Part shown: positions 18,501 through 48,229 of the stretch, one piece after another | How the letters are laid out: each line of letters begins with the position of its first letter | How positions within the stretch are numbered: the first letter of the stretch is position 1 | Source: Halobaculum halobium | GTDB lineage: Archaea > Halobacteriota > Halobacteria > Halobacteriales > Haloferacaceae | Direction of reading: 5' to 3' | DNA length: 64,000 nt | Assembly: GCF_030127145.1 (NCBI RefSeq) | Contig: NZ_CP126160.1 | Coordinates: forward strand, 62,001 to 126,000 | Translations under genes and position numbers: made by a program | The notes under the pieces: model-generated | The model's database searches: none | The model's input: only the letters and a program-made list of their open reading frames with translations | Told to the model about the DNA's origin: nothing

Positions 18501-19272
18501 TCTTGAAGAGATCGAGGTACGGGCTGATGACCCCGTCAACGAGGTCGCTTCCGCTCTTGAAGTGTCGCCGTACACGGTTGCAATCGCTCGGCAGAAGCAC
18601 GATCTCTACAGTGAAGCGGCACGCGAGAACGCCGCTGCGCGAATCGTCTCGTATCTCCTCGGCGAGCTATTTGGTCGCTGGACGGCTATCCCCGATCTCG
18701 ACCGAGTTGATGACGGCATCCTCCTGTTCGAAGCTTCCCAAGGGAAGGGTATCGAGGCGCGGCTCCGTGACGCGATGGAACTCGCGGTCGAAGATCCATA
18801 CGAACTGGAATCCCGACTGACCCGAGATCTCGGAAAATCGCCTGCTGATTGGCTTCTTGATACGTTCTTCCGGTACCAGCACAACAGCGACTACTCGCGG
18901 CGCGGTCAACGTGTCCCGATCTACTGGCACCTTGAAAGTGCAACGGGCGCGTTCAGTTGTTATCTCTACTACCACGCCATCGATGCCGACACGTTCCCGA
19001 GGCTACGGGGACAGTATCTCGATGCACGCCTGGACCAGCTTACCCAGCGTCTCGATACGTTACAGGCGACTCCGAGCGACGAATTAGAGCCGAACGAACG
19101 GCGTGAGATGGAGACGTTGCAGGATCAGATTGACGAGCTGGAAACGTTCGGCGGGCGGCTCGACGCAGTCATCGATAGCGGCTTCGATCCCGACTTTAAT
19201 GATGGAATCCACGAGAACCTCAAAACCGTCGATGAGTTTGGAGTGTTGGAGACACCAGTCGATTCATTATGA
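15598..19272 (+). CDS. pglX: BREX adenine-specific DNA methyltransferase PglX (first copy)
   Basis: 1,224 residues, usual size for PglX. SAM-binding motif I is ILDPACGGGHMLVYAF near residue 296, followed by VGVDVDPGAAQLTALAL; the catalytic motif IV is VVVTNPPYLVS near 520, typical of gamma-class N6-adenine methylases. Target recognition should lie in the 560-900 region (tandem WxxP-type strands such as RCWWEVPRGLLGDRY). A conserved tail SRRGQRVPIYWHLESATGAF occurs near residue 1100. It methylates one strand of a short non-palindromic motif to mark self DNA. It precedes brxE-like/brxA/B/C and has a paralogue at 25178-28903 that shares N- and C-terminal blocks but differs in the centre. Confidence 0.93.
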   Translation: MVPLLDSPGLSDEQRSAIRQTVLESREQLETEIQRSLERLGIERSHRTPLEDLPHLSQADRHQRRHVEAAIDHYYRGETTATEAYDTYVTEKVRRILNRLIGVKICEVRDLLVGTLDTQPEYGGRSYLQYTVGEIAGELTAGTADGLEPVLELAFQELEAELGSIFSRSRSRSIDIDPAVIRSVTNELHALEDEIWESDETIGWVYQYFGEEERSELDNRINDSDDDYRVHGADVGTKTQTFTPRHIVEWLVDNSLGRLWAEMHPDTVLSDEDYCFNLAPGSEGLQERPVRDVRDITILDPACGGGHMLVYAFDVLYQMYLEQGSVSESKIPRAILRHNLVGVDVDPGAAQLTALALYIKAKTQAPDTEIDRLNVVAADATLTNGDRRSELLSNVSTELERRVIEEVWDAFSRTRERGSLIRIEDRIEQVMEEEQEELDDLRPSDEAKLTSEGIETDTEFIVGGEAYSWDRLKDHLLSVVDDLAMEALETSDPAAELVADEISTGLRLTEVFLGSYDVVVTNPPYLVSNKMGTELKEFVKANYKASRDLYSAFIERCLEFADDDGYVAMITMETFMYQYVFRGFRPFLLERANFIDALHLSNRDEEYMNIAFIMQPLDGEPRPSRFLRLVDADDKPGATRELMATLRNEAQSEHVYTVDQRSFTAIDRSPFIYWFGAELLQLFEDYDGLGDHDDVAIKTGLQTDDDDRFVRCWWEVPRGLLGDRYRWYAMNGDPVDFYHSTEKVIDWENNGATVKEYDNSYVRNPSFYGRAGLTFRYSSSHFIGRDHPDGHIHSHTAHMVTTETRETDRTLLGYLNSSLSRYILDGLNPGLRFEKGDVEKLPSTTIADYPSRLSELASAAIDSRNTWFELVESKVEFEPQTFLNAIGSLPYRQEVMEADIATISHQIDTVVFDYYDISPEERSRVTQDFPARHGGYPHVTNVGTIPETNDHRNRVPREEYDSEAYEKLLEEIEVRADDPVNEVASALEVSPYTVAIARQKHDLYSEAARENAAARIVSYLLGELFGRWTAIPDLDRVDDGILLFEASQGKGIEARLRDAMELAVEDPYELESRLTRDLGKSPADWLLDTFFRYQHNSDYSRRGQRVPIYWHLESATGAFSCYLYYHAIDADTFPRLRGQYLDARLDQLTQRLDTLQATPSDELEPNERREMETLQDQIDELETFGGRLDAVIDSGFDPDFNDGIHENLKTVDEFGVLETPVDSL

Positions 19273-19313: not shown

Positions 19314-19336
19314 TTCCACCCCGTGTGGCGATATCT

Positions 19337-19936
19337 ATGTCGGAATTTGCGCTCGATGATGTCCTCGAGACTACACGGGAGGAACTGCAGGCCTTAGGTA
19401 TCGAGGAAGATCTGTTCCGCGATGTGCTCGCGGTTCGACTGCTCGTCGAACGTCTTGGTGAGTCGGAGAACAACTCCTGGTGGGACTCCCGTGTGTTCAC
19501 GTCGCTGGGGCGTGACTCATTAGCCGAAGTGACGCCAAAAACCCGCGTAAAGGCGCGGTTTGATCTTGCAATGCAGGTCGGGCGGAAGGTCGAACGCGAA
19601 GCGACCCCTGATGATTCACTGTCGCTGTTCTATCTTGGCCCGACGGGTGAGGCCCAGCTCGAAGCACTACTCGAGGATATTGACGGTGAGTCTACGTTCT
19701 CGCATCTGGAAGAACTGGAGGCGGCGTTTACTGAGCCAGGCTGGACGGCATCCGTAGTCGATGAGATGAGTGATATCGAGACTGGAACTCAAGGGCCGAT
19801 CGAGATTGGTTCCATCGATGCCGATGCGCTGCAAGATCATGACTCTCTCCGCGACGTCGCCCTACAGTGCTTTGGGGCATACGGAGCTTCGACACAGGAG
19901 ACGCTACGAGTTCCATACTTCAGTATCCAAGCATGA
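19337..19936 (+). CDS. brxE: BrxE-like BREX accessory protein
   Basis: 199 residues. An acidic N-terminus is followed by VRLLVERLGESENNSWWDSR, the double-Trp segment and then LAEVTPKTRVKARFDLAMQV, which resemble the conserved core of the BrxE family as I recall it (a WW pair followed by a PRT/PKT-Arg helix). Family members accompany BREX clusters; their function is unknown. The stop overlaps the brxA start (ATGA), so the genes are translationally coupled. Alternative: an unrelated small BREX accessory protein. Start chosen at ATG 19337 from the TATA spacing. Confidence 0.6.
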   Translation: MSEFALDDVLETTREELQALGIEEDLFRDVLAVRLLVERLGESENNSWWDSRVFTSLGRDSLAEVTPKTRVKARFDLAMQVGRKVEREATPDDSLSLFYLGPTGEAQLEALLEDIDGESTFSHLEELEAAFTEPGWTASVVDEMSDIETGTQGPIEIGSIDADALQDHDSLRDVALQCFGAYGASTQETLRVPYFSIQA

Positions 19937-20802
19937 CACCACAAGATAACGAACCAGCTGGCGGTGATGTCGAATCGGGGCGTTCGGATGCCCCTGACGA
20001 CCAGAATGAGCAACAGGAGGAATCGGATGAAGAGTCAACACTCGAATTGGATCCGAAAATCGCCCACCACGGCGCATACCTCGATGAGACGAAACTTCTG
20101 CTCCGTGAGTACCGACGGCTCGAGTCGTTTGATGCCCTGAAGGAACGCGTCGTCGAAGAGAACATTCTCAACAAGTCGACCGACTACTATCGTAAAAACA
20201 TCCTCAGAGAGGTTGCACGGCGGTATATTCCCGACAAGGAGACATACACGACGACGCCGTTGATGCGTGTGCTCGATGCGGATTTGCGGGATGATGTTGA
20301 GAACTGGTGTCTTTACTACGAGTTCGCACAGGATCCGTTCATCCGGCTGGTGACTCTCGAATACCTATATCCGGAGTTCGAACAAGGAACCCTTTCGGTT
20401 CGCTCGGAGGAAGTCGTAGAGTTCCTCGAAAATATTCAGGACGAGTACGACGGCCTGCGCGATCGGACGGATACGACCATTGAGGAAGCGGCAAGCAAGT
20501 ATCTCGCTGCGATGAAAAATTTCGGACTGCTCGAAGGACGCCAGCGCAAGGAATTCGCGATCACATACATTCCAGACGAGGCGATCGCGTACGTGGTGTA
20601 TCGCCTGTTCGATGCTGGCGTGGATACGGCCGCTGGTATCATCGAGCATGAAGATTGGCAGCTGCTTCTCCTCGACGAAGAAGACGTTCGCCGCCGACTG
20701 CAGGATATTAGTTCCTCATACGTTCGATACGAGAAGCTAGGTAGCACCGAACGGCTCGAACGATTATACGACGATACGGAGGCACTCATCAATGCCTTCT
20801 AA
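19933..20802 (+). CDS. brxA: BrxA (DUF1819) BREX protein
   Basis: 289 residues from ATG 19933. The first 45 residues are a disordered acidic tail; the DUF1819 body begins at about 50 with HHGAYLDETKLLLREYRRLE, continues with STDYYRKNILREVARRYI and WCLYYEFAQDPFIRLVTLEY, and ends in predicted wHTH-like helices (DVRRRLQDISSSYVRYEKLG). BrxA is a small DNA-binding component present in nearly all BREX types. It overlaps brxE-like by 4 nt and brxB by 11 nt, so the core genes are translated as a unit. Confidence 0.85.
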   Translation: MTPQDNEPAGGDVESGRSDAPDDQNEQQEESDEESTLELDPKIAHHGAYLDETKLLLREYRRLESFDALKERVVEENILNKSTDYYRKNILREVARRYIPDKETYTTTPLMRVLDADLRDDVENWCLYYEFAQDPFIRLVTLEYLYPEFEQGTLSVRSEEVVEFLENIQDEYDGLRDRTDTTIEEAASKYLAAMKNFGLLEGRQRKEFAITYIPDEAIAYVVYRLFDAGVDTAAGIIEHEDWQLLLLDEEDVRRRLQDISSSYVRYEKLGSTERLERLYDDTEALINAF

Positions 20803-21355
20803 CATCAACGATCGGCTCGAGGAGCTAGAGGATCTTGTGTTGCGGAATCGAGATAAAGTGGGCAAACGAACCGGCGTACCGTTCATTGTATTCACATACC
20901 CACCGAACGACGAACTCGACGTCGAACCCGAAATCGAGGGGTTCGCTGAGAAGTTACAGTTCAACGACCAGAACGTCGATCTCATCGATATGCGTGATCT
21001 GTTCTTCCAGACACTCGAGGATCAGGGCATTACTGAGGGGGTGTTTGAGCGCGAACAGCACGCACCGGATGAACTGTCAGATGGGCTCAAGCAGGCACTG
21101 CTCGAACCCGGAAACTCTCTGGGCCCGCTGCCGACCCGAATTATCGAAGCGTCTGAAGCTGCCGATACCGTACTCATATACCGGATGGGAATTCTGTACC
21201 CGTTCGCGAGCGCCTCACTGCTTATGTCGTTGCTGGAGGGTGAAGTCGAGTCGGATGTCCCGATCGTGTTCTTCTATCCAGCGACAACAGAGGATAAGAG
21301 TTTAAGATTCCTCAACGGGACAGAAGGAACGTACTACCGCGCCAAGGTATTCTAA
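20792..21355 (+). CDS. brxB: BrxB (DUF1788) BREX protein
   Basis: 187 residues, the family's usual length. NDRLEELEDLVLRNRDKVGK and PFIVFTYPPNDELDVE open the protein, followed by LIDMRDLFFQTLEDQG and VLIYRMGILYPFASASLLMS and ending in PIVFFYPATTED. This Rossmann-like layout, without a P-loop, matches DUF1788. BrxB is required for BREX activity and is thought to bridge BrxC and PglZ. It begins inside brxA and ends 1 nt before the brxC start. Confidence 0.88.
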   Translation: MPSNINDRLEELEDLVLRNRDKVGKRTGVPFIVFTYPPNDELDVEPEIEGFAEKLQFNDQNVDLIDMRDLFFQTLEDQGITEGVFEREQHAPDELSDGLKQALLEPGNSLGPLPTRIIEASEAADTVLIYRMGILYPFASASLLMSLLEGEVESDVPIVFFYPATTEDKSLRFLNGTEGTYYRAKVF

Positions 21356-21356
21356 T

Positions 21357-24300
21357 ATGAGTGGAACCACATCCGCGACCAAAATAAACGAGATCTTCTA
21401 CCGGGAAATCACCCGTGAGATCAACGAGGTCGTCAAAGTCGATAATGACGACCCGGAGCTCGTTCAGCAGGAACTCGAAGAATACATCCTCACGCCGCAG
21501 CTCGAGCAATACTTCCTCGACGCCCTTGAGGCGATCACGGACACCGAACACAACCAAACAGAGGACATCGGGATGTGGATCTCGGGGTTCTTCGGCTCGG
21601 GGAAGAGCCACTTCATGAAGATTCTCGGCTATATCCTCGAAAACGAGGAACTTCCAGGAGGGAACACGGCTTCCGAGATCTTCACCCAGCGGACGGAAAA
21701 CGAGATGCTCCGGGGATCAGTGGGAGGTGTCAACCGGAAATTCGACTCCGAAGTGATGATGTTCCAGATCGGCGCGAAAGCCGATGCGACGGAAGCGGAG
21801 TCGATCACGGAGATCATCCATCGCGAGTTCAATATCCAACGTGGCTACGCAGCGATGCCGTGGGTTGCAGCGCTCGAGGAGGACCTCGAAGCTGAAGGCC
21901 GGTATGAAGCGTTCAAAGAGGCCATCGAGGAACAGCGTGGGGAACCCTGGGAGGAGGTCCGTACCCGTGCAGCCTTCCTACGGCCGCACGTGAAACAGGC
22001 GCTCGCTGCCTGTACGCCAGCGTTTGATGAGGAGAACGCTGAACAAGCAATCGAGGACGTCGAGGAAGGTGTGCTCATCAACGCAACCACGCTAACTGAA
22101 AAGATCCTCGATCACGTCGAGCGGAAGGAGGAAGAAACAGGGAACGACCACCGATACTTCGTCTTCATCGACGAGATCTCTCAGTTCATCGGTGACGATC
22201 AGCAAAAGATCCTCACACTCCAGAGTATTGTCGAGGAATTCGGCCGGCAGGGCCAGGGTAAACTGTGGCTCGGCGTGACTTCCCAAGAGGAACTGAAGGA
22301 ACTTGTCGAAGGAGTGCTCGTCAACCAGGAGGAGCAGAATAAGGTCCGTGACCGGTTCCCGAACCGGTACAACCTTCGGTCGGAGGATCTTGACAAAATC
22401 GTCCGCGAGCGCATTCTCCAGAAAGATCCGCAGTACCACGAGGAACTCGGGCAACTCTTCGACGAGCGGGATGGAACGCTCTCGGCCCGCTACAAGATCG
22501 ACTCCGGCCGCGATCTCAAAGAGATCAGCCGCGAAAACTTCATCGAGTGTTACCCATTCCTCCCGTATCAGCTGGATATCCTCCCCGCAATTTTCGGAGC
22601 ACTCAGGGGTGAGGGATCCGATGATCGCTTGACTGGACGCGAGCGAACACTCATCGACGTCACTCAAAGCGTTCTCAAGGATTCGGACTTGCTGTATAAT
22701 AGCCAGCTTGGCGAGTTGGTCACGCTTGATCTAATCTTCGACGAGATCAAAGAGGAGATTCCGGACGCCGACGTCAGTTCTATCGAGGAGGCCGCCCCGA
22801 AAAACTCCGACAATGAACTCGCACGACGAGTGCTCAAGTCACTGTATCTCCTCCAAGAACTCGATTGGGTGCCGAACACGGCCGACAATATTGCGACTAC
22901 GCTACAGGGGGAGATCACGGATGCATCCGATCTCACCTCGCTGCACCACGACGTTGACGATGCCCTCGATGCCCTTGTCGAGGCGGGGTATGTCGGTCGG
23001 AGCGAGGAAGGATATCGGTTCCTCAGGGAAACCGAGCGAAAACTCGAAAACGAGATCAAGTCCGTAGATGTTCGCCCGGGCGATGTTCGGCGATTCTCGA
23101 AACGCTTGCTTAATGATCTCCTCGATAGCACCACCTCCGTCAGGTACGAAAGCCAGTCATTCGACGTGACGGTCGAAGTCGATGATGATACGCTCTCCAC
23201 GGGTGGGCATATCTTCCTCCAGGCATACTCGCCGATCCAACAGCTGTACGAAGACGTCGACGAACGAACGCTCAAACAGCAGAGCTTCTCTCAGGAAGAT
23301 ACGATCTACTGGATCGCTGACGCCGAGGAGGCTGCCGATCTCAAGTCCGATCTCGAGCGCATCCAACAGGTGGAGCAGACTCTCCGCAATAAACGCGGCG
23401 AGCAACTCAGCGAACAACAGCAGGATGCGGTCGCCCAGAAGCAGGAAGACGTCAACCGACTTCAAAACGAGGTCGAACGTCGTCTGACGGATGCCTTCCG
23501 GAAGGGAACGCTGATCTACAACGGGACCGCGACGGAGCTCAACGAGTCGAACAAGAACCTCGCCTCGATTGTCAGCGATCCCGTTACTGAGGCGATTCCG
23601 CGGGTGTTCACGAAGCTGGAACACGGGCTCGCGAACGTCAAAGACCGTCATCTCGAGCAGATCTTCGAGGATCTCGAAGGCTCCTCAGCTCCGAGCGTGT
23701 TCCGAGAGCTGGATGTCGTGCTCGACGGGGAGCTAAACCCGGAGGCACGAATCGCGTCGGAGGTCGAAGATGAGATCCAACAGCGGGAACAGGACGGCGA
23801 GGACCGCACTGGAAGCGACCTCGTGGCACACTTCGGCCAGCCGCCGTATGGATGGAGCCGTGACGTCGTGCGTCTCGCGACAGCAGTGCTGTTCCGTAAT
23901 GGATCGATCGTCGCCACTCACCAGGAACGCCCCTACGAGAACTACACGGAGGACGGAGCGACTGAGCTGTTCGAGCAGGTCTCCAAATTCAAGCATACGT
24001 CCTTCGATGAGCGAGAAACGGTTGATCCCGACACGCGCAACGCCGCTAAGCAGCTCCTCGACCGCCTCTTCGACAAGAAGGTCAAGCGCACTGACCAAGC
24101 TGTCGAGGGTGGGATCCGTGAGGTGATAGACACGTGGACGAGCTGGACTGCGGGCATCAAGCGCGAGCTCGAACGCGTACAGTTCCCACTCCTTGGTGCT
24201 GTGGATTCGTTCGAAACTCGTCTCCAGAATCTTGATCAGCAGGCGACGGCAGCCAAGCGAATCAAGCAGTTCGTCGAGTTCGAGGATGAGCTGGAACAAC

Positions 24301-24989
24301 TCACACCGAAAGTCAAGGCCGTCAAGTCGTTTGTGGAGGCCGACCGACTCGAGACGTACGGCACGTACACGAAGTTCCTCAACGATGAGTGGGCGACGCT
24401 CATCGAACAGGCCGACGAGACACCCGATCACGTGACCGTTTCCGCAGAGGCCCGCAAAGCGGCGGATAAGTTGGACACTATTCTCTCGAGCGAGCAGGTC
24501 GTCGACGACTGGACTAACGCCCAGACGGAATACCAGAAGGCTGCTCAGGCGTATGCATCCGCCTATACGGATCTGTACGAGCAGCGTCACGAGGTGTATA
24601 CCGACGCAATCGGCCGCGTTCAGTCATATGCTGACGGTGAATTGGAAGAGAGCGACCTCAAGGCAGCACTCCAGCCGTTGGCTAGTCGGCTCGGTAACGA
24701 ATCGATCTCACTTGACGTGAGTGCTGGTGATCATCTCGATCGTTCGCCTGACATCGGGCGGTTAGTCGAACACATTCAGACGGTCGACTCCTACGAGAAG
24801 CAGGCACGCGAGGCGGTCGATCGCCGGCGCCCCGAGGACACGGTTCACAAGACGGTCGAACTCCAGTCGATCTTCGGAAGCGAGACGATCACCGATATCG
24901 AGGAGCTTGAGGAACCGATCGACGAGCTTCGTGATGCGGTCGCCACGGCCCTTGACGAAGAGGAAGACGTCGAGGTTCGATTCTCTTAG
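21357..24989 (+). CDS. brxC: BrxC/PglY ATPase of BREX
   Basis: 1,210 residues, normal for BrxC. Walker A is GFFGSGKSHFMKILGY near residue 77; Walker B YFVFIDEISQFIGDD near 267; an arginine-rich sensor region follows. SQEELKELVEG and NRYNLRSEDLDKIVRERIL fit the AAA+/STAND-like core. The C-terminal half is long coiled coil (ERIQQVEQTLRNKRGEQLSE; QQDAVAQKQEDVNRLQNEVE). BrxC is the large BREX ATPase presumed to load on DNA with BrxB, PglZ and PglX. It closes the brxE-like/A/B/C run; pglX2 follows after a 188-bp gap. Confidence 0.94.
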   Translation: MSGTTSATKINEIFYREITREINEVVKVDNDDPELVQQELEEYILTPQLEQYFLDALEAITDTEHNQTEDIGMWISGFFGSGKSHFMKILGYILENEELPGGNTASEIFTQRTENEMLRGSVGGVNRKFDSEVMMFQIGAKADATEAESITEIIHREFNIQRGYAAMPWVAALEEDLEAEGRYEAFKEAIEEQRGEPWEEVRTRAAFLRPHVKQALAACTPAFDEENAEQAIEDVEEGVLINATTLTEKILDHVERKEEETGNDHRYFVFIDEISQFIGDDQQKILTLQSIVEEFGRQGQGKLWLGVTSQEELKELVEGVLVNQEEQNKVRDRFPNRYNLRSEDLDKIVRERILQKDPQYHEELGQLFDERDGTLSARYKIDSGRDLKEISRENFIECYPFLPYQLDILPAIFGALRGEGSDDRLTGRERTLIDVTQSVLKDSDLLYNSQLGELVTLDLIFDEIKEEIPDADVSSIEEAAPKNSDNELARRVLKSLYLLQELDWVPNTADNIATTLQGEITDASDLTSLHHDVDDALDALVEAGYVGRSEEGYRFLRETERKLENEIKSVDVRPGDVRRFSKRLLNDLLDSTTSVRYESQSFDVTVEVDDDTLSTGGHIFLQAYSPIQQLYEDVDERTLKQQSFSQEDTIYWIADAEEAADLKSDLERIQQVEQTLRNKRGEQLSEQQQDAVAQKQEDVNRLQNEVERRLTDAFRKGTLIYNGTATELNESNKNLASIVSDPVTEAIPRVFTKLEHGLANVKDRHLEQIFEDLEGSSAPSVFRELDVVLDGELNPEARIASEVEDEIQQREQDGEDRTGSDLVAHFGQPPYGWSRDVVRLATAVLFRNGSIVATHQERPYENYTEDGATELFEQVSKFKHTSFDERETVDPDTRNAAKQLLDRLFDKKVKRTDQAVEGGIREVIDTWTSWTAGIKRELERVQFPLLGAVDSFETRLQNLDQQATAAKRIKQFVEFEDELEQLTPKVKAVKSFVEADRLETYGTYTKFLNDEWATLIEQADETPDHVTVSAEARKAADKLDTILSSEQVVDDWTNAQTEYQKAAQAYASAYTDLYEQRHEVYTDAIGRVQSYADGELEESDLKAALQPLASRLGNESISLDVSAGDHLDRSPDIGRLVEHIQTVDSYEKQAREAVDRRRPEDTVHKTVELQSIFGSETITDIEELEEPIDELRDAVATALDEEEDVEVRFS

Positions 24990-25063: not shown

Positions 25064-25177
25064 CCCCCGGCTGCGCTCACTGAGGGTATGTCGCCGCCGA
25101 TGGGTGATTCGCGGTGGGAGTGACTTTCTCACCGAGTCCCCCGTCTGCGGCTTACTGAGTCCGATCCTCCTCAATTC

Positions 25178-28100
25178 ATGTCTACGACACACGGCCAACC
25201 TGGTTTGAGTTCGGAGCAACGCTCGACGATTCGCAGTACCATCCTTTCGGCCCGGAATACGCTTGAGTCGGAGATCCGCCGGCAGCTGGAACGATATGGG
25301 GTCTATGAGGATGAGCGGCTACCGTTGGAAGAGCTCTCTCATCTTTCGCTGGAGGACCGCCACACGCGGCGAACAATAGATGCCGCGCTCGAACGGGAAC
25401 TCGAATCAACAGACGGGGATCTGGAGCGGTCGATCACTAACTACGTCCGCGAAGCGACGAAGGCCTATCTCAACCGATTTGTCGCACTGAAATGCATCGA
25501 AGTTCGCGGGCTCGTCGAGGAGACTATCACCGAGCGCCCGGAGTATGGCGGTCGATCGTATATGCATCACACCGTGGCCGAGATCGCCGGCGAGCTAACC
25601 GCTGCTCCCGACGACGGCTTCGGTGCCGCACTTGATCTTGCGTATCAGGAGATCGGTGCGGAGATTCGGATGATCTTCGAGGAGTCCGAACACACCGCTA
25701 TCGATCTGGATGCGCAGGTTCGGGGAGACGTTCTCGACGAACTGGATGCGATTGATAATGAGGCTTGGGAGAGCGACGAGGCACTGGGCTGGGTATACCA
25801 GTACTTTGGTGAGGAAGAACGTGAAGAGATCGACGACCGCGTCGACGAAGAGAACTACAAAATCGCTGGGACAGACATCGCTACGAAGACCCAGCTGTTC
25901 ACTCCCCGGTATATCGTCGAGTGGATGGTGGATAACTCACTGGGCCGGACGTGGCTCGAAATGCAGGGCGAACGGACGAATATCGATGATGAGGAGAATT
26001 GCTTCTATCTTGCCCCGCTGGAAGACTCGTTAATTGATAGAGAAACAAAGGCGGTGAAAGACATTACCGTGGTTGACCCTGCTTGTGGCAGTGGACATAT
26101 GCTCTTCTACGCCTTCGACGTACTCTACCAGATGTATCTGGAGGAGGGAGAAATCCCTGAAAAGTATATCCCACGCGAGATTCTTCGAAACAATCTATAT
26201 GGGATCGATATTGATACCGGTGCAGCACAAATCGCAGCATTGTCACTATATCTTAAAGCGAAAGCACGGGCTCCCGATACAGAAGTTGAGCAAATAAATA
26301 TCGCCTCGGCAGATGCTGTTTTAATAAACGGTGAGAAAAAACAGGAGGTCCTCAGCCGGTCACAGTCGGAGTTCGAAAGAAAAATTCTCGAACAGATATG
26401 GACTAGCTTTGAACATATCCGTGAGTGGGGTAGCCTTGTTCGAGTAGAAGAGCGTATCGAGGAAATCATCGACGAATATCGGGACGAACTCGAATCAGCG
26501 GGTCAATCCAAGTTTACGCAAAGCGGAGGACTTGAAAAGCAGGCTTCTGTTGTTTCGTTCTCGGATGGTGAATCTGAGTCCTGGGAGGCTGTGAAAGAGC
26601 GGTTACTTGAGAATACCCGTGAAATTGCTCGCATTGCTCTCGATGAGGATAACCCGGTTGACGAAATGTTCGCTTCAGAGGTATCAAAGACTGTTGAACT
26701 TCTTGATATTCTCATTCATGATTATGATGTTGTGGTCGCTAATCCGCCTTACTTAGGTAGCGCAAAAATGGGGGAGAATCTGAAACAATATGTTAAGGAT
26801 GGATATGTTGGGACCCGCGATTTGTATGCCGCCTTCATTCAACGATCTTGGGAATTCGCGAAGGATGAGGGATATGCGTCACTAGTCACACCGGAGAACT
26901 ATATGTTCTCGTATAGCTACCGGAAACTCCGCCGTATTTTACTCCAAAATCATCAATTTGTCGAGGGTGTCCACCTCTCTCGTTATGGATTTGACCAGCA
27001 AAAAGATGCCTACACTATTCCATTCCTTCTTCGCAATAGTGAGCCGAAGAAACTTGACAAAACACGCTTCTACCGTATGACCCATGAACAAGATCAATAC
27101 GAGGACTATGAGAAGAAAATACAGGGATTGCAAAACTTAGTCGGACAAATCAGGAATGACAATAATCCAGACGACATTTATGTGATTAATTCCGATGATT
27201 TCTTATCAATTGGAAGACAGCCATTCCTGTATTGGTTTGGTGATTCTATCCTTAATCTCTTCTCCAAATATCCTGCAATAGAAGAGTCGGTTGAAGTGAA
27301 GCAAGGACTAGCTACGGGGGACGATGACCGGTTTGTAAGAAAGCACTGGGAGGTCCCACCTGAAGAATTGGAAAGTCAGTATGTCCCATATCAGAAAAGT
27401 GGGTCTTCCTCTCCATACTATGATACACAACGTGATTATCTCAATTGGGAGAATGAAGGTGAAGCAGTAAAGGAATATAGCGGAAGTCGTCCCCAAAACC
27501 CTGATTACTATTTCCGAGAAGGAATCTCATTCCGGGGTTTCGGAAATTATGCCGTTGCTCGCAAAAAACCAGATGACACTATCTTCTATCATAAATCGCA
27601 CTTCGTATACTCGTATGAGATAAGTGATAATTATTTACTTGGATATGGTAACTCTACCCTAGTTCGATTCCTCCTAAATGGCATCAATCCGTCATTGAAT
27701 TTTGAAGTTGGAGACGTAAAGCGACTACCAATTGATCCGGATCCTGAACAACAAAAAAAGGTAGAGGATCTCGTCAACCAAGCATTGGACCGCAGGAGGC
27801 AATTAGTCTCATTGGATGAGACCAGTGATGAATTTGCTCCGGAAGTTTTCACCGACCATATCCAGAGTGGGGTAAGAGACCTTCTGTATCAAAAGGATCA
27901 GCTCAACGCAGAAGTGGGTGTGATCCATGGACTTATTGATCCGATAATCTACGACGAATACTCAATCCCAACAGAAGAGCGTGACCGACTTTACAATAAT
28001 CTACCTAAGAACCTTTCATCATATCCCACCGTTGAAAACTTAGAAACTGATTATGAAAACATCAGTGACAAAATTCCGGAAGAGACGCTAACATCAGAGA

Positions 28101-28903
28101 GATATGAGGAACTGATTTCTAATATTGCTGAAGGCCCAGAAAACGTTCGTGATGCAGCTGAAGATTTGGAAGTATCCCCTATAACAATCGCAGATGCTCG
28201 GTATAGAGAGAACCTTTATCGTGACGAGAGGCTCGAACAATCTGCAGGCCATATTATATCATTTACCTTAGGTTTGATATTTGAACGATGGGATGTCAAT
28301 CAGGAGATAGAAACTGTTGATGATGGGATATTAAGTTTCGACCAGAGTGCCGGTCAAAACGTAAGGGAGCAGATCTTGACCTGCTTTGAAAGGCTTTTCG
28401 ATGAAAGTTCGAGTATGCAGGCATCTCTTGAAGATTCCCTAGGAAGTTCAATAGAAGACTGGCTACGTGAATCCTTCTTCCGATATCATCATTGCAAAGA
28501 GTACCGTCGTCGAGGGCAGCGTATTCCGATTTACTGGCAACTCGAAAGTCCGGAAGGCGCATTCAGTTGCTTCGTTTACTATCATGAAATAGATGCGAAC
28601 ACGCTTCCGAAACTTCGCGGCCAATACCTTGACCCACGCATAGAAGAGCTTGAAAACGAAATTGAGACCCTGGACGCACAGACTAGTAGTGATAGCCCAG
28701 ACAAGGAACTCTTGAACCGAAAAGAGAAAGTTCAAAACGATCTCAACGATATCAGAGAATTCCGAAATACAATTGACGAAATGATTGACGACGGTGTTTC
28801 CGTTGATGCTAACGAAGGAATTTGGGAGAACATTAAAGAATGGGATCAATACGAAATTCTTGAAACAGGACTGCCAAAATTAAAATCGAGCTACTCCAGA
28901 TAA
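25178..28903 (+). CDS. pglX: BREX adenine-specific DNA methyltransferase PglX (second copy)
   Basis: 1,241 residues. Motif I is VVDPACGSGHMLFYAF near 298-310 with YGIDIDTGAAQIAALS after it; motif IV is VVVANPPYLGSAKMG near 520. The first about 280 residues track the other copy (LSSEQRSTIRSTILSARNTL; GWVYQYFGEEEREEIDDR) and the tail RRRGQRIPIYWQLESPEGAF is also shared, but the target-recognition centre is different. Composition changes inside the gene: the 5' end is like the neighbours, whereas from about 26,040 to the end it is AT-rich (24 G/C in 27541-27600). The copy should methylate a different motif from copy 1. The TBP-like gene follows after 63 nt. Confidence 0.93.
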   Translation: MSTTHGQPGLSSEQRSTIRSTILSARNTLESEIRRQLERYGVYEDERLPLEELSHLSLEDRHTRRTIDAALERELESTDGDLERSITNYVREATKAYLNRFVALKCIEVRGLVEETITERPEYGGRSYMHHTVAEIAGELTAAPDDGFGAALDLAYQEIGAEIRMIFEESEHTAIDLDAQVRGDVLDELDAIDNEAWESDEALGWVYQYFGEEEREEIDDRVDEENYKIAGTDIATKTQLFTPRYIVEWMVDNSLGRTWLEMQGERTNIDDEENCFYLAPLEDSLIDRETKAVKDITVVDPACGSGHMLFYAFDVLYQMYLEEGEIPEKYIPREILRNNLYGIDIDTGAAQIAALSLYLKAKARAPDTEVEQINIASADAVLINGEKKQEVLSRSQSEFERKILEQIWTSFEHIREWGSLVRVEERIEEIIDEYRDELESAGQSKFTQSGGLEKQASVVSFSDGESESWEAVKERLLENTREIARIALDEDNPVDEMFASEVSKTVELLDILIHDYDVVVANPPYLGSAKMGENLKQYVKDGYVGTRDLYAAFIQRSWEFAKDEGYASLVTPENYMFSYSYRKLRRILLQNHQFVEGVHLSRYGFDQQKDAYTIPFLLRNSEPKKLDKTRFYRMTHEQDQYEDYEKKIQGLQNLVGQIRNDNNPDDIYVINSDDFLSIGRQPFLYWFGDSILNLFSKYPAIEESVEVKQGLATGDDDRFVRKHWEVPPEELESQYVPYQKSGSSSPYYDTQRDYLNWENEGEAVKEYSGSRPQNPDYYFREGISFRGFGNYAVARKKPDDTIFYHKSHFVYSYEISDNYLLGYGNSTLVRFLLNGINPSLNFEVGDVKRLPIDPDPEQQKKVEDLVNQALDRRRQLVSLDETSDEFAPEVFTDHIQSGVRDLLYQKDQLNAEVGVIHGLIDPIIYDEYSIPTEERDRLYNNLPKNLSSYPTVENLETDYENISDKIPEETLTSERYEELISNIAEGPENVRDAAEDLEVSPITIADARYRENLYRDERLEQSAGHIISFTLGLIFERWDVNQEIETVDDGILSFDQSAGQNVREQILTCFERLFDESSSMQASLEDSLGSSIEDWLRESFFRYHHCKEYRRRGQRIPIYWQLESPEGAFSCFVYYHEIDANTLPKLRGQYLDPRIEELENEIETLDAQTSSDSPDKELLNRKEKVQNDLNDIREFRNTIDEMIDDGVSVDANEGIWENIKEWDQYEILETGLPKLKSSYSR

Positions 28904-28966
28904 ATAAGAATTAGATTTTCAACTGAAATCTCTTGAAGAGATGATGGTTATAACGATTCAGAAATA

Positions 28967-29515
28967 ATGGGTGAACTTACTATTCAGAATGTTGTTGGTG
29001 GAGGTCAAATCGGTACAGAAATTGATCTATATTCGATAGCTAAAGTAGAGTTTGAACCGTTCAATACCCAGTATGAACCGGAGTCATTTCCAGGTGTTGT
29101 ATTCCGTTCCGATAATTTAGAACCCACTATAATATTACACCGATCTGGCAAATCCAATATTGCCGGTGGCAAATCCACCTCTGAAACAAAAGAGGCATTT
29201 GACATATTTTGTTCTAGCATTACAAATGAAACGGGACTTGAGATACACCCAGAATTGGAAATTCGATACTTCGTTACAACTGGCGACCTCGAGAGAGAAA
29301 TAGATCTCTCTGCTGCTGTGCTAGCCTTGGGGATCGACGAGACAGAGTACGAACCTGAGCAATTTCCTGGGCTATTCTATCGACCAGATGAACAAGATTG
29401 GTTTTCAATTTTGTTCGCAACGGGTTCTATTATTATTGATGGCGTTCCAGACATAGGTCTACTTGAAGAAGCATATCGTAATATAGATAATACGCTATCT
29501 GAACAAAGTATCTAA
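28967..29515 (+). CDS. Divergent TATA-binding protein homologue inside the BREX locus
   Basis: 182 residues in two TBP repeats. Repeat 1: TIQNVVGGGQIGTEIDLYSI, YEPESFPGVVFR, ILHRSGKSNIAGGKS. Repeat 2: IRYFVTTGDLEREIDLSAAV, YEPEQFPGLFYR, ILFATGSIIIDG. The FPG(V/L) stirrup segments are kept, but canonical features are lost: repeat 2 has Tyr-Phe where the DNA-contacting Asn of QN(I/V)V is expected, and repeat 1 has ILH where a stirrup Phe (ILF) is usual. Archaeal TBPs nucleate transcription at TATA boxes; haloarchaea often carry extra copies on plasmids. It is AT-rich like the end of pglX2. A promoter-selective factor or anti-factor tied to BREX is inferred. Confidence 0.82.
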   Translation: MGELTIQNVVGGGQIGTEIDLYSIAKVEFEPFNTQYEPESFPGVVFRSDNLEPTIILHRSGKSNIAGGKSTSETKEAFDIFCSSITNETGLEIHPELEIRYFVTTGDLEREIDLSAAVLALGIDETEYEPEQFPGLFYRPDEQDWFSILFATGSIIIDGVPDIGLLEEAYRNIDNTLSEQSI

Positions 29516-29668: not shown

Positions 29669-30741
29669 ATGCCTCACGATGCGAAGGATTTCTATAAGTA
29701 CGGGAAGCCTGTCGGTGAGCTGTTCCAGACGCTCTCCGAGAGTTACTTCGACACCTACGAAGAGGGACGGCCGTTCGGTGAGGGTGTTGACGATACCTAT
29801 CCAGATGAGTATCCTGAATCTCGTTGGGGTCTCGACCTCGGTTGCGTTCAGCACAATACGCCCGCATGGGGGGAATCTTGTCTCCGATCAGTCCAGAACC
29901 ACGTCCTCTACCATATTGTTGCGAACGCCCAGTCCAACCGTGAGACACTGACTGCATTCTTCGCCAACCCTGATGAGGATCCGTCGCCGGACAAGGCGCT
30001 ACAGAACCTCTCGAACGCGTGGCGCGATGGTTCGCGCTTAATGACCCACTCGATGGTTCGGTGGAGGACCGAATGCGAACAGCCGAGTGGCGAATCACGA
30101 TGTGTTACTACGCAATCTACAAGGCGTTTAGTGGCCTGATGCGAGCGACGTTCGAAGAGATTCGAGCATCGGGTGGAGGCGGGAGCCACGGACAGATGTG
30201 GAAGAAGCATCGAACCTCTATGTTGACGGAATTGGAGGACGCGCTCTACGCCTATCCGTTTATGCCGTTTCCAGTCGGGCGGTTTTCGGATGAGGCGTTC
30301 GACTGGACGATTCCGTATCCCGCTTGGGCAGAGCAGCCGGAAAGGCTGGAGTCACGATTGGCCACCAACGCAGAACACGAGCTGGAAGCGATATATGAAC
30401 TCCGAGACCGATTCCATCGAAATCCCGATTCCCCGTGCCCAACATTCTTCGACCTGCTTCTTGACCTCCGACATTGGGCAAACTACCACCGTGGAGGGAT
30501 CTTCAGCCGGCTCTATGGTGGGGGCTACAAATTCGCTATCGACGAGGGGCTCCGGATCACGACTTTCGCAGGGTTGGCGATCGCAGAAGTTGGGCTGATC
30601 CATTCGTTGGATTACGATACCGTCAAAGAGGAATATGAGGGCTATCGGAGAAGTTCGGAGGAGGGGATCGAGGAAAGCGCCCGTTTGGTATCTCGACGGT
30701 TCTCGGTATATGAGGAGGTGTTCGGAAATAACGACGCATAG
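29669..30741 (+). pseudogene. Frameshifted HEPN-like protein
   Basis: Translation starts at ATG 29669 (GGAGGA 12 nt upstream) and runs to near 30030; the rest of the protein continues in the -1 frame to TAA 30739-30741. Restoring one G in GATGGTTC near 30028-30031 would join NLSNAWRDG to FALNDPLDGSVEDRM. The downstream part looks like a HEPN-type helical domain: MCYYAIYKAFSGLMR, GGSHGQMWKKH, and later LLDLRHWANYHRGG, which contains an Arg-x5-His that fits the HEPN RNase motif. HEPN is an inference. It lies between TBP and pglZ, in the direction of the BREX genes. Either a true one-base loss or a homopolymer sequencing error. Confidence 0.6.
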
Positions 30742-30889
30742 GATGTCTACCGCGTAAATCTGTCATTCTGAATCCGATGGGTCATCGAATTGCTGAGTGA
30801 GAAAAGTGAGCCATCAACTGTAAAGATGGTGAGCATCCGGCACTGAGTTCCCGAAACAGACATCAACCTACTTGCAGTACGCCACGACA

Positions 30890-33319
30890 ATGGGAGACAC
30901 CGCCGCACGGATCGTGACCGAGCTCCGGGAGAAGTTCCACCGCCACGATGTCTGGGTCTGGTACGACTCCCAAGAGACCTACACAGGCGCTATCGATGAT
31001 ATCCGCTCGGGGCTCGCCGCGGATGACATCAACGTTGCCGTCTACGAAGACAGCTTCCTCGAGCTGAAACACCGAGTCTGGAAGGAAGATCCCGATCTCG
31101 ACGAGCAATGGCTGTTCTACGTCCCGACGTCGAAAAACGACGCCGAGTGGTTTATGGACATCCACAGCCTCGGCAAGCAGTATCGGACGGGGGCGGACGT
31201 CGATTCTAGCTCTCCGGCCTCGCAGTACCTTATCGAACACGAATCCGCGATTCCCGACGAGTTCAGTACCTGGGGGCAGAATGAAGCTACCCGACGGAAG
31301 GCGTTCTTTTGTGTTCTGTTCGGCACTCAGGAGGACAACCCCGCAGAGTGGATCCTCCGATATCTCGACGATCCAGACGCCTACGAAGAGACGATTCAGG
31401 AGTACGGACAGACCGACGACTGGTCGGCATTGCTTGATGAGCGGTACGGGATCTCCGCTAGCCTCGACCCGGAAGACATCGCGACGGAAATCCTGTTTGG
31501 CGAGGTCGCAGTCAGTTCGCCAACAAGCCGTTACGATGAACTTGCGGCCGACGAGCGAATTGAAAGCAAGCGGCTGTGCGAGTACTGGCAGCAACACGAT
31601 CCAGCGACGTACGTCGAGTACGCCCGTTCGGTTGCAGCGGAATACGATCTCAAGACTGCAGTCCTCGACTCCGGCAATGTCGATTGGCATTCGACGGCAT
31701 TCCGCGGAATTGACGAGGGCCTCGTCCGGCTCTGTCTCGACCGGTTGAACGATGCCGATTACGTCGATCTCCCCGAAATCGCTGCCGACCTCCACTCGGT
31801 CGTCAGCGAGCGTCGACGTGGATTCTGGTATGAGGAAGGTTACGCCGGGTATTGGGACGTGCTAGCACCGGCGCTCAGCGCTCTGGATGGGATTGGCGAC
31901 GCACAGACAGCCCTCGATGAGCAGGTGTTCTCTCCAAGCGAACTTCATGACCGCTACGTTGCTGACTGGTGGACCGTCGACCGGGACTACCGACAGTACA
32001 TCCAAGCAACGACGGAAGATGCTGCGCCCGTACCTGGACTTAGTACTCTCAAGAATCGCATCACTCAGCAGTATATGGATTTTCTCAAAGCAGTCAATCG
32101 CCCACTTGCGGAGGGGTTAGGCGACGAACCACGACTCACGACTCCGCAGACACAGTTTTTCGATGAATATGCCGCGACCAATGAGAAAACGGCCATCTTC
32201 ATTTGTGATGGCCTCCGGTACGAGCTGGCCGAAACGCTTCGTGACGAGTTGAGCTATGATTTCGATCATCAGCTCGAAGCCGTCAGTGCGGCGCTGCCAT
32301 CCGTGACTGAGGTCGGTATGGCTGCCCACCTCCCTGGCCAGTTAGGCCTCGCAGTCGAGGATGATGAACTCCAGATCACTGTTGACGGAGAGCCAACTGA
32401 GAACAAACAGTCCCGGGTCGATCGGTTTGCACGTGCTGGGTTCGAGGTAGCAGATCTGACCGATATTCTCGATACACCGTTGGAGGATCTTCAGACTGCG
32501 GAGCCAGTACCTAGGATCCTCTACTCCGGAATCATCGACAAACTCGGCGAGAATATCGACGACGACGAGGCCCTAGCGCGCGCAGAAGGCCACGTCACTC
32601 AGGTTCAAAAGGCAATCCAGCGGCTTCGTTACGCCGGCTACGAGCGCTTTATTGTCACTGCTGATCACGGATTCCTCTTCACTGATCGCCTGAGCGACGA
32701 TCTGAAACTCGACGCACCAGATTTGGCCCCGATCGTCAAACGTCGGTTTGCAGCCGCAGACGTGGACACCCCGCTCGTCGGCGATGCCGAGTACATCACG
32801 CTCGAGAGCGCGGCACTCGAATCACTGGGCATCGATGCTCCTAACGTGCAGTTTCTGTTCCCGCGAAGCGTCGCCTGCTTCAGGGCTCGCGGTGGGAATA
32901 TGCGCTACTTCCATGGTGGGATATCGATTCAAGAATTGCTTGTTCCATGTCTTACCGTCACAACCGAAGAACTCGACGAGAGTGCGAGCATCTCGTATGA
33001 TGTGTCGATTCCGGACCCGATCACGAATACGATCGTTTCTATCGATGTGGAAGCGAAAAGTGAGCAGGTTTCGTTCGATCGAACACCGACCTTGGAAATC
33101 CGCGCCAGTATCGATGACGAGCCTGTCGCAGATCCCGTGGAACTAGAGATCTCTCCTGGCTCAAATAGTGCGTCCATCCGATTGAAACAGGGCGCGCTCG
33201 CCGGTGAATCGAGCGTCACATTCGAACTCGTGAGTACAGACACACGGGAAACGATCGAGCGCCGAAGCGTGGCGCTTGATCTGCTGTTCGGTGACGACGA
33301 TATGGGTTTCGACGTGTAG
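30890..33319 (+). CDS. pglZ: BREX phosphatase-like protein PglZ
   Basis: About 809 residues from ATG 30890; a TTG six codons upstream is possible. The alkaline-phosphatase-superfamily core is visible: AIFICDGLRYELAETLRDEL near 435-455, SVTEVGMAAHLPGQLGLA after it, and FIVTADHGFLFTDRLSDDL near 590, with metal-binding Asp and His. A beta-rich C-terminal domain follows (VSIPDPITNTIVSIDVEAK). PglZ is the invariant BREX component, essential for phage exclusion; in studied members it has metal-dependent nuclease activity. The gap from the frameshifted gene is 148 nt with no strong TATA box, so transcription from upstream is likely. Confidence 0.92.
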   Translation: MGDTAARIVTELREKFHRHDVWVWYDSQETYTGAIDDIRSGLAADDINVAVYEDSFLELKHRVWKEDPDLDEQWLFYVPTSKNDAEWFMDIHSLGKQYRTGADVDSSSPASQYLIEHESAIPDEFSTWGQNEATRRKAFFCVLFGTQEDNPAEWILRYLDDPDAYEETIQEYGQTDDWSALLDERYGISASLDPEDIATEILFGEVAVSSPTSRYDELAADERIESKRLCEYWQQHDPATYVEYARSVAAEYDLKTAVLDSGNVDWHSTAFRGIDEGLVRLCLDRLNDADYVDLPEIAADLHSVVSERRRGFWYEEGYAGYWDVLAPALSALDGIGDAQTALDEQVFSPSELHDRYVADWWTVDRDYRQYIQATTEDAAPVPGLSTLKNRITQQYMDFLKAVNRPLAEGLGDEPRLTTPQTQFFDEYAATNEKTAIFICDGLRYELAETLRDELSYDFDHQLEAVSAALPSVTEVGMAAHLPGQLGLAVEDDELQITVDGEPTENKQSRVDRFARAGFEVADLTDILDTPLEDLQTAEPVPRILYSGIIDKLGENIDDDEALARAEGHVTQVQKAIQRLRYAGYERFIVTADHGFLFTDRLSDDLKLDAPDLAPIVKRRFAAADVDTPLVGDAEYITLESAALESLGIDAPNVQFLFPRSVACFRARGGNMRYFHGGISIQELLVPCLTVTTEELDESASISYDVSIPDPITNTIVSIDVEAKSEQVSFDRTPTLEIRASIDDEPVADPVELEISPGSNSASIRLKQGALAGESSVTFELVSTDTRETIERRSVALDLLFGDDDMGFDV

Positions 33320-34452: not shown

Positions 34453-34801
34453 TGGTTGGTTTTACTGCTGCTCTTCCCTGTCGGTTACGGCTGGTACCGA
34501 AAGTGGAGAAGCGTTCGTGACTCTTCTTTGGGGGGAGTCAACATTAGAGTTCGGCTGGGCAGTCTCAGATTCTCTACCTCGCGTCTGTCTCGCTAACGTT
34601 GACACCCTCTCTTCTTTGATACGCTATTTTTGATCATCCCTAGTTCGTCCTTTGGCACGGAGCGGTAGGTTACGGTCGTGGATGGCTACGGAGTCGATTC
34701 CCTCCGTCGCCAATTTTCAGGATCGCGGCTCTTCGCTCAGAGTGGATACCGTGAATGAGATAACCGACATTCCTTTGACGCCACCAATCCTCTGCCGTTG
34801 T
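34453..34801. other. Divergent non-coding region before brxL
   Basis: About 350 bp separate the minus-strand KOW-like gene from brxL. A frame open from 34652 would extend BrxL N-terminally by 50 residues, but its composition (RSWMATESIPSVANF) is not acidic and an ATG at 34802 fits the family start. An AT-rich stretch TTGATACGCTATTTTTGATC near 34615-34635 is the only promoter-like signal noted. Confidence 0.45.
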
Positions 34802-36829
34802 ATGTCTATTCGAGACGTCGATCAAAAGGCCCTCGACGTCTTCTCCGGCCGCGTAGTCCGAAAGGACCTTGTTCAGGATATCAAGGCCGGGGCAAACGTC
34901 CCGACGTATGTCCTCGAATATCTCGTCGGACAGTACTGTGCCACCGATGACGAGCAATCGATGGAGGAAGGGTTGGAGACGGTTAAGAAGATTCTCTCGA
35001 AGCATTACGTCCGCCCGGATGAGGCTGAATTCGTCAAAAGTGAAGTCCGTGAACGCGGTCGCTATCGCGTCATCGACAAAGTGACCGTCAGGCTCGACGA
35101 ACAACAGGACGCCTACATCGGGTCCTTCGTGAACTTGGGGCTCAGCGACGTTGAGATCAACGAGCATCTCGTTAGCAAGCATCCGAAGCTACTCGGCGGC
35201 GGTGTCTGGGCGGTTATCGATCTCGAGTATCTGCCCGACAACGCAAATTCCCAGAAGAGCTTGTTCGGTATTGACTCGTTCAAACCGATTCAGGTGTCGA
35301 ATCTCGATCTCGACCAGCTGAAAGAACGCCGCAGGGAGTTCACACGCGACGAGTGGCTCGACTTGTTGCTCCAGAGTATTGGCTATGACCCTTCCTCATT
35401 TGACCGCAGGGAGAAAATGCTATTTCTGCTCCGGTGTGTCCCTCTCGTCGAATCGAACTACAACTACGTGGAGCTCGGCCCTCGCGGCACCGGGAAAAGC
35501 TACCTGTACCGGGAGATCAGCCCGCATTCTATACTAATTTCCGGTGGGAAAACCACCGTCGCAAAACTGTTCTTGAACCTTAACACGGGGCGGATTGGCC
35601 TCGTTGGACGTTGGGACGTCGTCGCGTTCGACGAGGTCGGCGGTCTGCAGTTCTCGGACTCGGAGGCCGTCCAGATGCTCAAGGACTATATGGAGTCCGG
35701 AAGCTTCTCGCGCGGTACTGAGGAGCTGACCGCACAGGCGTCAATGGTCTACGTCGGCAATATCGACCTTGACGTCGAGGGTGTACTCAAGAGCTCTCAC
35801 TTGTTCAAGCCGTTCCCAGAGGACATGCAGGACCTCGCACTGATCGACCGCTTCCATTACTACCTACCAGGCTGGGAAGTACCAAAGATGCAGTCGTCGT
35901 TCTTTGGTGATCAGTTCGGCTTCATCGTCGACTACTTCGCGGAGTTCGTTCGCGAGCTCCGCAAGGAGTCGTACGGGGACGCAATCAATGAGGTGTTCAC
36001 GTTCGGCGATCATCTCAACCAGCGAGACGAAAAGGCCGTCCGCAAGACCGTCTCGGGACTACTGAAACTACTTCACCCGCACGGTGAGTACACGAAGGAG
36101 GAACTCAGAGAGTACCTCGAACTGGCGATGGAAGGGCGACGCCGTGTGAAAGAGCAGCTCAAACGGATGGGGGGTATGGAGTACCGGGCAGTGAACTTCT
36201 CATACATCGATCTTGAAACACGCGAAGAAACATTCGTGAGTGTGCCCGAGGAAGCAGAGGAGTCCCTGATCCCCCCCGGGACACAGCAGCCAGGCACGCT
36301 CTATACGATCGGCGAATCCGGATCCAAGAACGCCGTCTTCCGAATCGAAACACAGGCGTTGCCCGGCTCCGGGAAGACGAGCATCGCCGGCTCGACAGGC
36401 ACAGAGATGAAAGAGGAGTTCCAGACCGCGACAAATTACCTGCAAGCGAACATCCGGGAGTTGTCCCGGGATGAGTCGCTCGACGACTACGATATCAAGG
36501 TGCAGGTGCTGAATCCCTCGGACGCTGAGACAGGAACTGAGATCAGTATGGGCTTTCTTATCGGCATCATCTCCGGCATTCTGGATCGGCCTGTCCGGTC
36601 CCAAATGGTCGCACTCGGTGGACTGAGTCTCACGGGAGAGCTCGTTGAAGTAGACTCCCTCGTAGACAAGCTTCAGCTGGCGGTCGACGCTGGTGCCTCA
36701 ACAGTCCTGCTTCCCGCAAAAAACAAAGAGGATTTCGCCAGGATTCCAGATGAGCTTCTCGACGAGCTGGAGCTAGTGTTCTACACTGATCCGATCGAGG
36801 CCGCTAGCAAAGCGATGCAGTTGGAGTAG
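34802..36829 (+). CDS. brxL: BrxL Lon-like AAA+ protein
   Basis: 675 residues, typical for BrxL. N-terminal DNA-binding-like region; AAA+ Walker A VELGPRGTGKSYLYREI near 222-238, and WDVVAFDEVGGLQFSDSEAV (Walker B) near 277-296. The C-terminal Lon-like domain has EISMGFLIGIISGILDRP with the candidate nucleophile S582 and VDKLQLAVDAGASTVLLPAK with K623, so the Ser-Lys dyad appears intact. In type 1 BREX, BrxL forms barrel hexamers on DNA and is needed for phage exclusion. It is separated from pglZ by two antisense genes, giving it its own promoter. Confidence 0.92.
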   Translation: MSIRDVDQKALDVFSGRVVRKDLVQDIKAGANVPTYVLEYLVGQYCATDDEQSMEEGLETVKKILSKHYVRPDEAEFVKSEVRERGRYRVIDKVTVRLDEQQDAYIGSFVNLGLSDVEINEHLVSKHPKLLGGGVWAVIDLEYLPDNANSQKSLFGIDSFKPIQVSNLDLDQLKERRREFTRDEWLDLLLQSIGYDPSSFDRREKMLFLLRCVPLVESNYNYVELGPRGTGKSYLYREISPHSILISGGKTTVAKLFLNLNTGRIGLVGRWDVVAFDEVGGLQFSDSEAVQMLKDYMESGSFSRGTEELTAQASMVYVGNIDLDVEGVLKSSHLFKPFPEDMQDLALIDRFHYYLPGWEVPKMQSSFFGDQFGFIVDYFAEFVRELRKESYGDAINEVFTFGDHLNQRDEKAVRKTVSGLLKLLHPHGEYTKEELREYLELAMEGRRRVKEQLKRMGGMEYRAVNFSYIDLETREETFVSVPEEAEESLIPPGTQQPGTLYTIGESGSKNAVFRIETQALPGSGKTSIAGSTGTEMKEEFQTATNYLQANIRELSRDESLDDYDIKVQVLNPSDAETGTEISMGFLIGIISGILDRPVRSQMVALGGLSLTGELVEVDSLVDKLQLAVDAGASTVLLPAKNKEDFARIPDELLDELELVFYTDPIEAASKAMQLE

Positions 36830-48155: not shown

Positions 48156-48229
48156 ACAGAGGAATTCCACTGCCGTCGTCAAAAAACACTTGTTGTGTAG
48201 TTCCTCGCGCCGCGGTGGTTGTGTTTGTT

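Follow-up and report, generated by a model that had tools for sequence, protein, structure and literature searches.

A divergent TBP encoded in a haloarchaeal BREX cluster and its relatives beside DNA-modification defence systems

A distinct group of TATA-binding proteins (TBPs, basic transcription factors) recurs beside BREX and restriction-modification (RM) systems in many haloarchaea and in their viruses, and methylase-based defence systems probably carry in this way a transcription switch of their own. The member described here, P0001, is encoded within a BREX cluster of the window (the whole stretch of 64,000 nucleotides that was analysed, carried on a 167-kb contig) and is proposed, tentatively and at slightly less than an even chance, to be a defence-dedicated TBP, that is, an initiation factor that a DNA-modification defence system carries for its own control. 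Why haloarchaea have so many TBP paralogues is a matter of long debate; a large proportion of those that diverge is physically linked to DNA-modification defence systems, which points to a concrete and testable role. If the proposal is right, these proteins would be the archaeal counterpart of RM controller proteins, made from a general transcription factor, and would explain how mobile BREX and RM modules could be safely expressed in new hosts. A search of the open-access literature, to which it was confined, returned no report of TBPs in haloarchaeal BREX, RM or IIG-methylase systems.

The BREX cluster and its TBP

The cluster is composed of pglX1, a 203-aa ORF, brxA, brxB, brxC, pglX2, the TBP gene, a gene initially annotated as HEPN-like, pglZ and brxL, in this order (Table 1). 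It shares the core order brxA-brxB-brxC-pglX-pglZ-brxL with type I BREX, reportedly established as a type by Goldfarb et al. in 2015, and differs from it in the extra pglX1, the 203-aa ORF, the TBP, the frameshifted HEPN-like gene and the helicase and nuclease genes that come after it. The 203-aa ORF gave no match in a Pfam scan, and its homologues (35-52% identity) lie directly upstream of brxA in other loci. The initial annotation of the accessory gene next to the TBP as HEPN-like needs correction: a Pfam scan of this gene returned zero matches, and it is broken by a single frameshift near 30029. In tblastn, intact 353-aa homologues from two loci (L047 and L053), which occupy the same pglX-pglZ slot there, align to the window as two abutting HSPs in frames 2 and 1 with 60% identity. 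Downstream of brxL (37031-44091), two large genes code for a PD-(D/E)XK nuclease protein and a UvrD helicase-nuclease, and the same two genes follow brxL in several other BREX loci. A further ORF of 1,364 aa on the minus strand (44088-48182), which adjoins the BREX cluster and has no TBP of its own, shows 26% likeness to the type IIG enzyme of the virus HRTV-9.

Table 1. Genes of the BREX cluster, with positions in the window
Feature	Position	Strand	Evidence or remark
pglX1, second PglX paralogue	15598..19272	+	PADLOC PglX 3.8e-138
203-aa BREX-linked ORF, conserved in this BREX type	19325..19936	+	homologues directly 5' of brxA elsewhere
brxA	19867..20802	+	PF08849 1e-14; PADLOC BrxA 1e-21
brxB	20792..21355	+	PF08747 4.3e-15; PADLOC BrxB 3.8e-20
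brxC, ATPase	21357..24989	+	PADLOC BrxC 7.3e-184
pglX2, BREX adenine methyltransferase	25178..28903	+	PADLOC PglX 4.6e-157
TBP P0001	28967..29515	+	182 aa, two TBP repeats, BREX-embedded, divergent
HEPN-like (initial name) accessory gene	29669..30741	+	tblastn, homologues in L053/L047
pglZ	30872..33319	+	PADLOC PglZ 1.1e-60
brxL (Lon-like)	34652..36829	+	PF13337 2.3e-140; PADLOC BrxL 2.7e-290

P0001 is a genuine, complete and conserved two-repeat TBP. The Pfam family PF00352 covers both repeats (E=4e-32, 110 bits against a cut-off of 22.9), and the closest solved structure by PDB sequence match is the Methanocaldococcus (M.) jannaschii TBP 2z8u (E=3.8e-26), which is also the top Foldseek match (E=1.3e-15) of an AlphaFold (AF2) model that contains the full TBP saddle (mean pLDDT 91.5); the best structural matches are all TBPs. 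The gene starts 63 bp downstream of pglX2, and low GC (~0.41-0.46) extends over 26-30 kb of the window, so that Pfam, gene order and composition bear out the initial annotation, which had placed a TBP inside the BREX cluster, on the strand of pglX2 and in a low-GC stretch. The same genome encodes two further TBPs, both chromosomal, and one broken remnant, which carries stop codons (G000:C1:1282435-1282593).

Close relatives of P0001 were found, among 392 Halobacteriales genomes, only in Haloarcula japonica (82-83%) and in a second genome, G282 (62%), every other match being at or below 40%. The H. japonica orthologue, too, occupies the pglX-pglZ interval of a BREX cluster, which has a second TBP between brxC and pglX, and the G282 orthologue comes after a type IIG/DrmMI-like methylase. 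Between the window and H. japonica, 81% DNA identity is restricted to positions 25173-29488, which is exactly pglX2 plus the TBP, whereas brxABC and pglZ show 65-67%, and therefore pglX2 and the TBP were transferred together; this cassette moved as one unit. The comparison of both TBP genes gave a dN of 0.12 and a dS of 0.87 (dN/dS ~0.14), which denotes purifying selection.

Defence-linked TBPs in haloarchaea and their viruses

Other BREX loci, too, repeatedly contain TBPs, for the most part in the pglX-pglZ slot. In a survey that started from brxC homologues with at least 50% identity (~23 genomes), a TBP occupied the pglX-pglZ slot in 7 of the 20 complete type-I-like BREX loci (the window, L038, L049, L051, L057, L062 and L063, the last two from one genome); with the mean genomic TBP density multiplied by ten, the number expected by chance would still be 0.14. 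Elsewhere the slot is empty or filled by a HEPN-like, GmrSD-type, SMC-like or small unknown gene, and this variety identifies the pglX-pglZ gap as an accessory slot. Roughly two thirds of the comparable BREX loci thus work without a slot TBP, which counts against a dedicated-TBP model. TBPs are present too in more distant BREX loci (L080, L081, L122, L133, L143 and L150), one of them annotated by NCBI as BREX-5.

Several observations on these loci can be added. In loci L044-L061 the gaps between pglX and pglZ and between brxC and pglX contain NucS-like and Mrr-like nucleases, GmrSD, SMC-like and unknown small proteins. The TBP relatives of L051 (10605-11285) and L057 (8742-9386) have one recognisable repeat and a strongly altered N-terminal half, and their genes are on the strand opposite to pglX and pglZ.

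A profile made from eight BREX TBPs separates high-scoring TBPs from the housekeeping TBPs of the same genomes, and among 393 genomes sampled across the phylum the high-scoring type was confined to Halobacteriales. Sixty neighbourhoods were chosen by TBP score alone, blind to gene context, and 48 of 53 loci (L120-L172) had at least one TBP with a methylase or defence gene within 4 kb (30 IIG/SNF2, 14 type I RM and 4 BREX). Within 1.5 kb, such a neighbour was found for 65/70 defence-assigned TBPs vs 0/26 housekeeping TBPs, a count that includes loci assigned by the 4-kb rule, the 48 of 53 being the cleaner test. Chance insertion of the TBP, which the initial annotation had set against its proposal as a presence here only, with no conservation near BREX elsewhere, is rejected on the slot and adjacency counts. 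The link to BREX itself was upheld, but not its framing as a matter of BREX only, as BREX is one of several systems with such a TBP.

The recurrent neighbours are a ~1,380-aa IIG/DrmMI-like methylase, a ~988-aa SNF2/PLD helicase, type I HsdM/HsdS/HsdR and BREX proteins; none of those scanned is a partner TFB gene. Either the TBP gene is coupled to the 3' end of an operon, or it is divergent from the methylase gene. According to the NCBI annotation, plasmid pHLAC01 of Hrr. lacusprofundi carries a methylase-helicase-TBP operon with 4-bp gene overlaps (an overlapping arrangement found in many IIG-SNF2-TBP loci), Halolamina has the same order, and Halobacterium DL1 has a methylase, a restriction subunit and a TBP. 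This species can serve as a model, since a laboratory strain of Halorubrum lacusprofundi that lacks pHLAC01 is available and has been described as virus-sensitive (PMC10544981). Elsewhere the TBP gene and hsdM or pglX diverge from a common intergenic region, a usual layout of regulators that supports a regulatory role.

That the TBP of IIG-SNF2-TBP operons is translationally coupled to the genes for the methylase and the helicase, and that all three members of the P0001 clade lie directly downstream of a methylase, would also suit a component of the effector complex, where the TBP would bind and bend DNA, or contact the methylase or helicase, and so aid target choice or self/non-self discrimination. 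This explanation is considered unlikely, since type I HsdM/S/R, PglX, IIG enzymes and an N4-cytosine methyltransferase with Eco29kI do not obviously share a binding surface, the TBP moves between systems on the tree, and the same systems occur without it. That the partners are unrelated enzymes (PglX, HsdM, IIG, N4-cytosine methyltransferase with Eco29kI) favours a shared role in expression over a dedicated protein-protein role. What these partners have in common is DNA modification and a need for controlled expression, not protein architecture, and this, with the preserved TFB motif, favours a dedicated initiation or regulatory factor.

Since TBP genes abound on the plasmids of haloarchaea (76 plasmid records) and other accessory genes share the BREX slot, P0001 might be seen as a passenger, just another of the numerous plasmid-borne TBP paralogues that reached defence islands by chance. 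This is highly improbable in view of the adjacency counts, the gene overlaps, the signature of the subfamily, the RM-TBP modules of viruses, the co-transfer with pglX2 and the purifying selection.

Two related tailed haloviruses carry such modules, with differing RM genes and a TBP alongside in each. In HRTV-9 (L200) a TBP gene lies 16 bp after the gene of a IIG enzyme, and in HJTV-2 (L199) the TBP adjoins an N4-cytosine methylase and an Eco29kI-like nuclease; both modules occupy corresponding variable genome regions beside the ribonucleotide reductase and integrase genes. Both viral TBPs are of the defence type, their nearest relatives being RM-linked TBPs (~55%) and the BREX TBP of L081 (63%). 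Marine viral TBPs from IMG/VR (L114-L118) were considered as members of this type and rejected as housekeeping-like.

DNA modification as the feature common to the partners, and the presence of the same subfamily in haloviruses, could also point to a TBP that tolerates modified or virus-altered promoters, so that transcription of the host or of the system would persist if promoter adenines were methylated or a virus disabled the housekeeping TBP. This reading is regarded as very unlikely, because N6-methyladenine lies in the major groove of DNA whereas TBP reads the minor groove, and no motif or virus factor was identified in this analysis.

Subfamily signature and the DNA-binding face

Defence TBPs share with haloarchaeal housekeeping and plasmid TBPs (PF00352; tbpA-F type paralogues) the fold, the two repeats, the acidic halophilic composition and the TFB-contact motif EYEPEQFPG, and differ from them in forming a separate branch, in the Pro of the YRPD motif (63/66 defence TBPs vs 0/28 housekeeping TBPs, which have Leu, Met or Ile there), in having mostly Tyr at F99 and F116 (sites are given in what we take to be yeast TBP numbering) and in lying beside defence genes. 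Repeat 1 is characteristically changed (F99 to Tyr in 51/66, F116 to Tyr in 56/66 and V122 to Ile in 50/66), repeat 2 is mostly canonical (N159 in 60/66, F190 in 61/66, F207 in 63/66 and T215 in 56/66) and the TFB contacts E186, P187 and E188 are almost invariant.

P0001 retains N69, F99, F190 and F207 and stands further from the housekeeping and plasmid TBPs through F116H, T124A, N159Y and T215D, so that the canonical minor-groove contact set (N69, N159, four Phe, T124 and T215) is not complete. Both changes that the initial annotation had listed, the loss of the DNA-contact Asn of repeat 2 and of one stirrup Phe of repeat 1, are present (Tyr at N159 and His at F116), and the altered DNA-contact surface that it had deduced is supported by the residue comparison; T124A, T215D and the retained F99, F190 and F207 were missing from its list. 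These changes make ordinary TATA-box binding less likely and leave the homology to TBPs unaffected. E186, P187 and E188 of the C-terminal stirrup are conserved in the P0001 sequence, and its TFB-binding stirrup is predicted to be intact.

The YRPD Pro is present in P0001 and in its H. japonica and G282 relatives, whose neighbours are BREX or IIG genes. Judged by aligned residues, this clade (F99 kept in 2/3 and F116H in 2/3, with T124A, N159Y/F and T215D) is more altered than the remaining defence TBPs. In the trees, defence TBPs group together and apart from housekeeping ones, with switching between systems inside the group. The P0001 clade joins the other defence TBPs in the outgroup-rooted best tree with a support of 99/85, and the alternative that places it with housekeeping TBPs has a p-AU of 0.138 and is not rejected; it is a probable sister of the other defence TBPs.

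An intact TFB stirrup combined with altered DNA contacts (both intercalating Phe of repeat 1 replaced by Tyr in most members, and the three contact changes F116H, N159Y and T215D in P0001) would fit a poison TBP, a defence effector that binds TFB and not the normal TATA box, sequesters TFB or forms dead complexes, and halts transcription of the virus or of the whole cell during infection. Such a TFB-sequestering role is compatible with the altered DNA face of P0001, and repeat 1 is almost unrecognisable in the BREX TBPs of L051 and L057. Repeat 2 is nevertheless canonical in most members, the change from Phe to Tyr is mild, and RM-adjacent TBPs inside viruses fit poorly with an antiviral poison of transcription, so that this reading, too, seems unlikely, if marginally less so than the effector-complex component.

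Proposed role and promoter elements

As a defence-dedicated TBP, P0001 would probably be co-transcribed with pglX2, bind the TFB of the host through its intact C-terminal stirrup, and recruit RNA polymerase to the promoters of its own system (the modification genes) or autoregulate them, with a TATA preference shifted by the changes on its DNA-binding saddle; a mobile modification or defence cassette could thereby set its own expression on entering a new host. The data show the TBP fold, the subfamily, the residue changes, the purifying selection, the co-transfer with pglX2 and the recurrent gene linkage, whereas TFB binding, promoter binding and a regulatory role are what we infer for P0001. 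The initial annotation had put forward transcription of BREX genes, a response to infection and a block of viral promoters, all of which stand as candidate functions. Against this model, the loss of N159 and the Asp at T215 on the DNA face suggest that TATA binding could be weaker. It is held to be an evenly balanced proposition that a single dedicated TBP lineage supplies haloarchaea and their viruses with an interchangeable control part, common to BREX, type I RM, IIG-methylase/helicase and viral type II RM modules.

The controller (C) proteins of bacterial RM operons, of which P0001 might be the archaeal functional counterpart, are helix-turn-helix repressor-activators. The likeness lies in a gene for a small DNA-binding protein that belongs to the RM operon and frequently overlaps, or diverges from, the genes of the enzymes, and in the timing of expression, which for the TBPs is proposed here. 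P0001 has the TBP saddle (a general transcription factor fold) and not a helix-turn-helix, and is thus at most an analogue of C proteins and not a member. TBPs in conflict systems are on record in TOTE (TPR, OB, TBP, Effector; Aravind/Iyer 2022) and in TALON (TOTE-like, Bacillati), according to the published account (PMC12458937). P0001 resembles these systems in being a TBP-domain protein encoded in a prokaryotic conflict or defence operon, whereas the proteins found here are whole archaeal-type TBPs, which in Halobacteriales go with BREX, type I RM and IIG-methylase systems. A Pfam scan of the BREX core, the neighbours and the accessory gene found none of the TPR, OB or effector partners of TOTE beside P0001, an OB or TPR protein too divergent for Pfam being possible.

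No cis element for P0001 was found in the window. A promoter element shared by TBP-bearing systems was sought in 19 TBP upstream regions, and the best result, 5 matching sequences vs 3-4 in shuffles, is not convincing. The lack of a common element counts against a dedicated-TBP model, as does the absence from the window of TAGTCTAAGTAAAGACTATAT, a 21-bp element (a palindrome plus TATA) that was found nowhere else in the 2.4 Mb of DNA examined, including RM and BREX loci. This element heads all 11 of the IIG-SNF2-TBP operons that start with a 63-aa AbrB-like gene (L126, L152, L155-L159, L162, L163, L165 and L170), where it lies ~80-90 bp upstream of that gene with at most 2 mismatches and diverged flanks. 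Its restriction to operons beginning with this gene disfavours a TBP-specific signal and makes it more likely to be an operator of the 63-aa AbrB-like protein.
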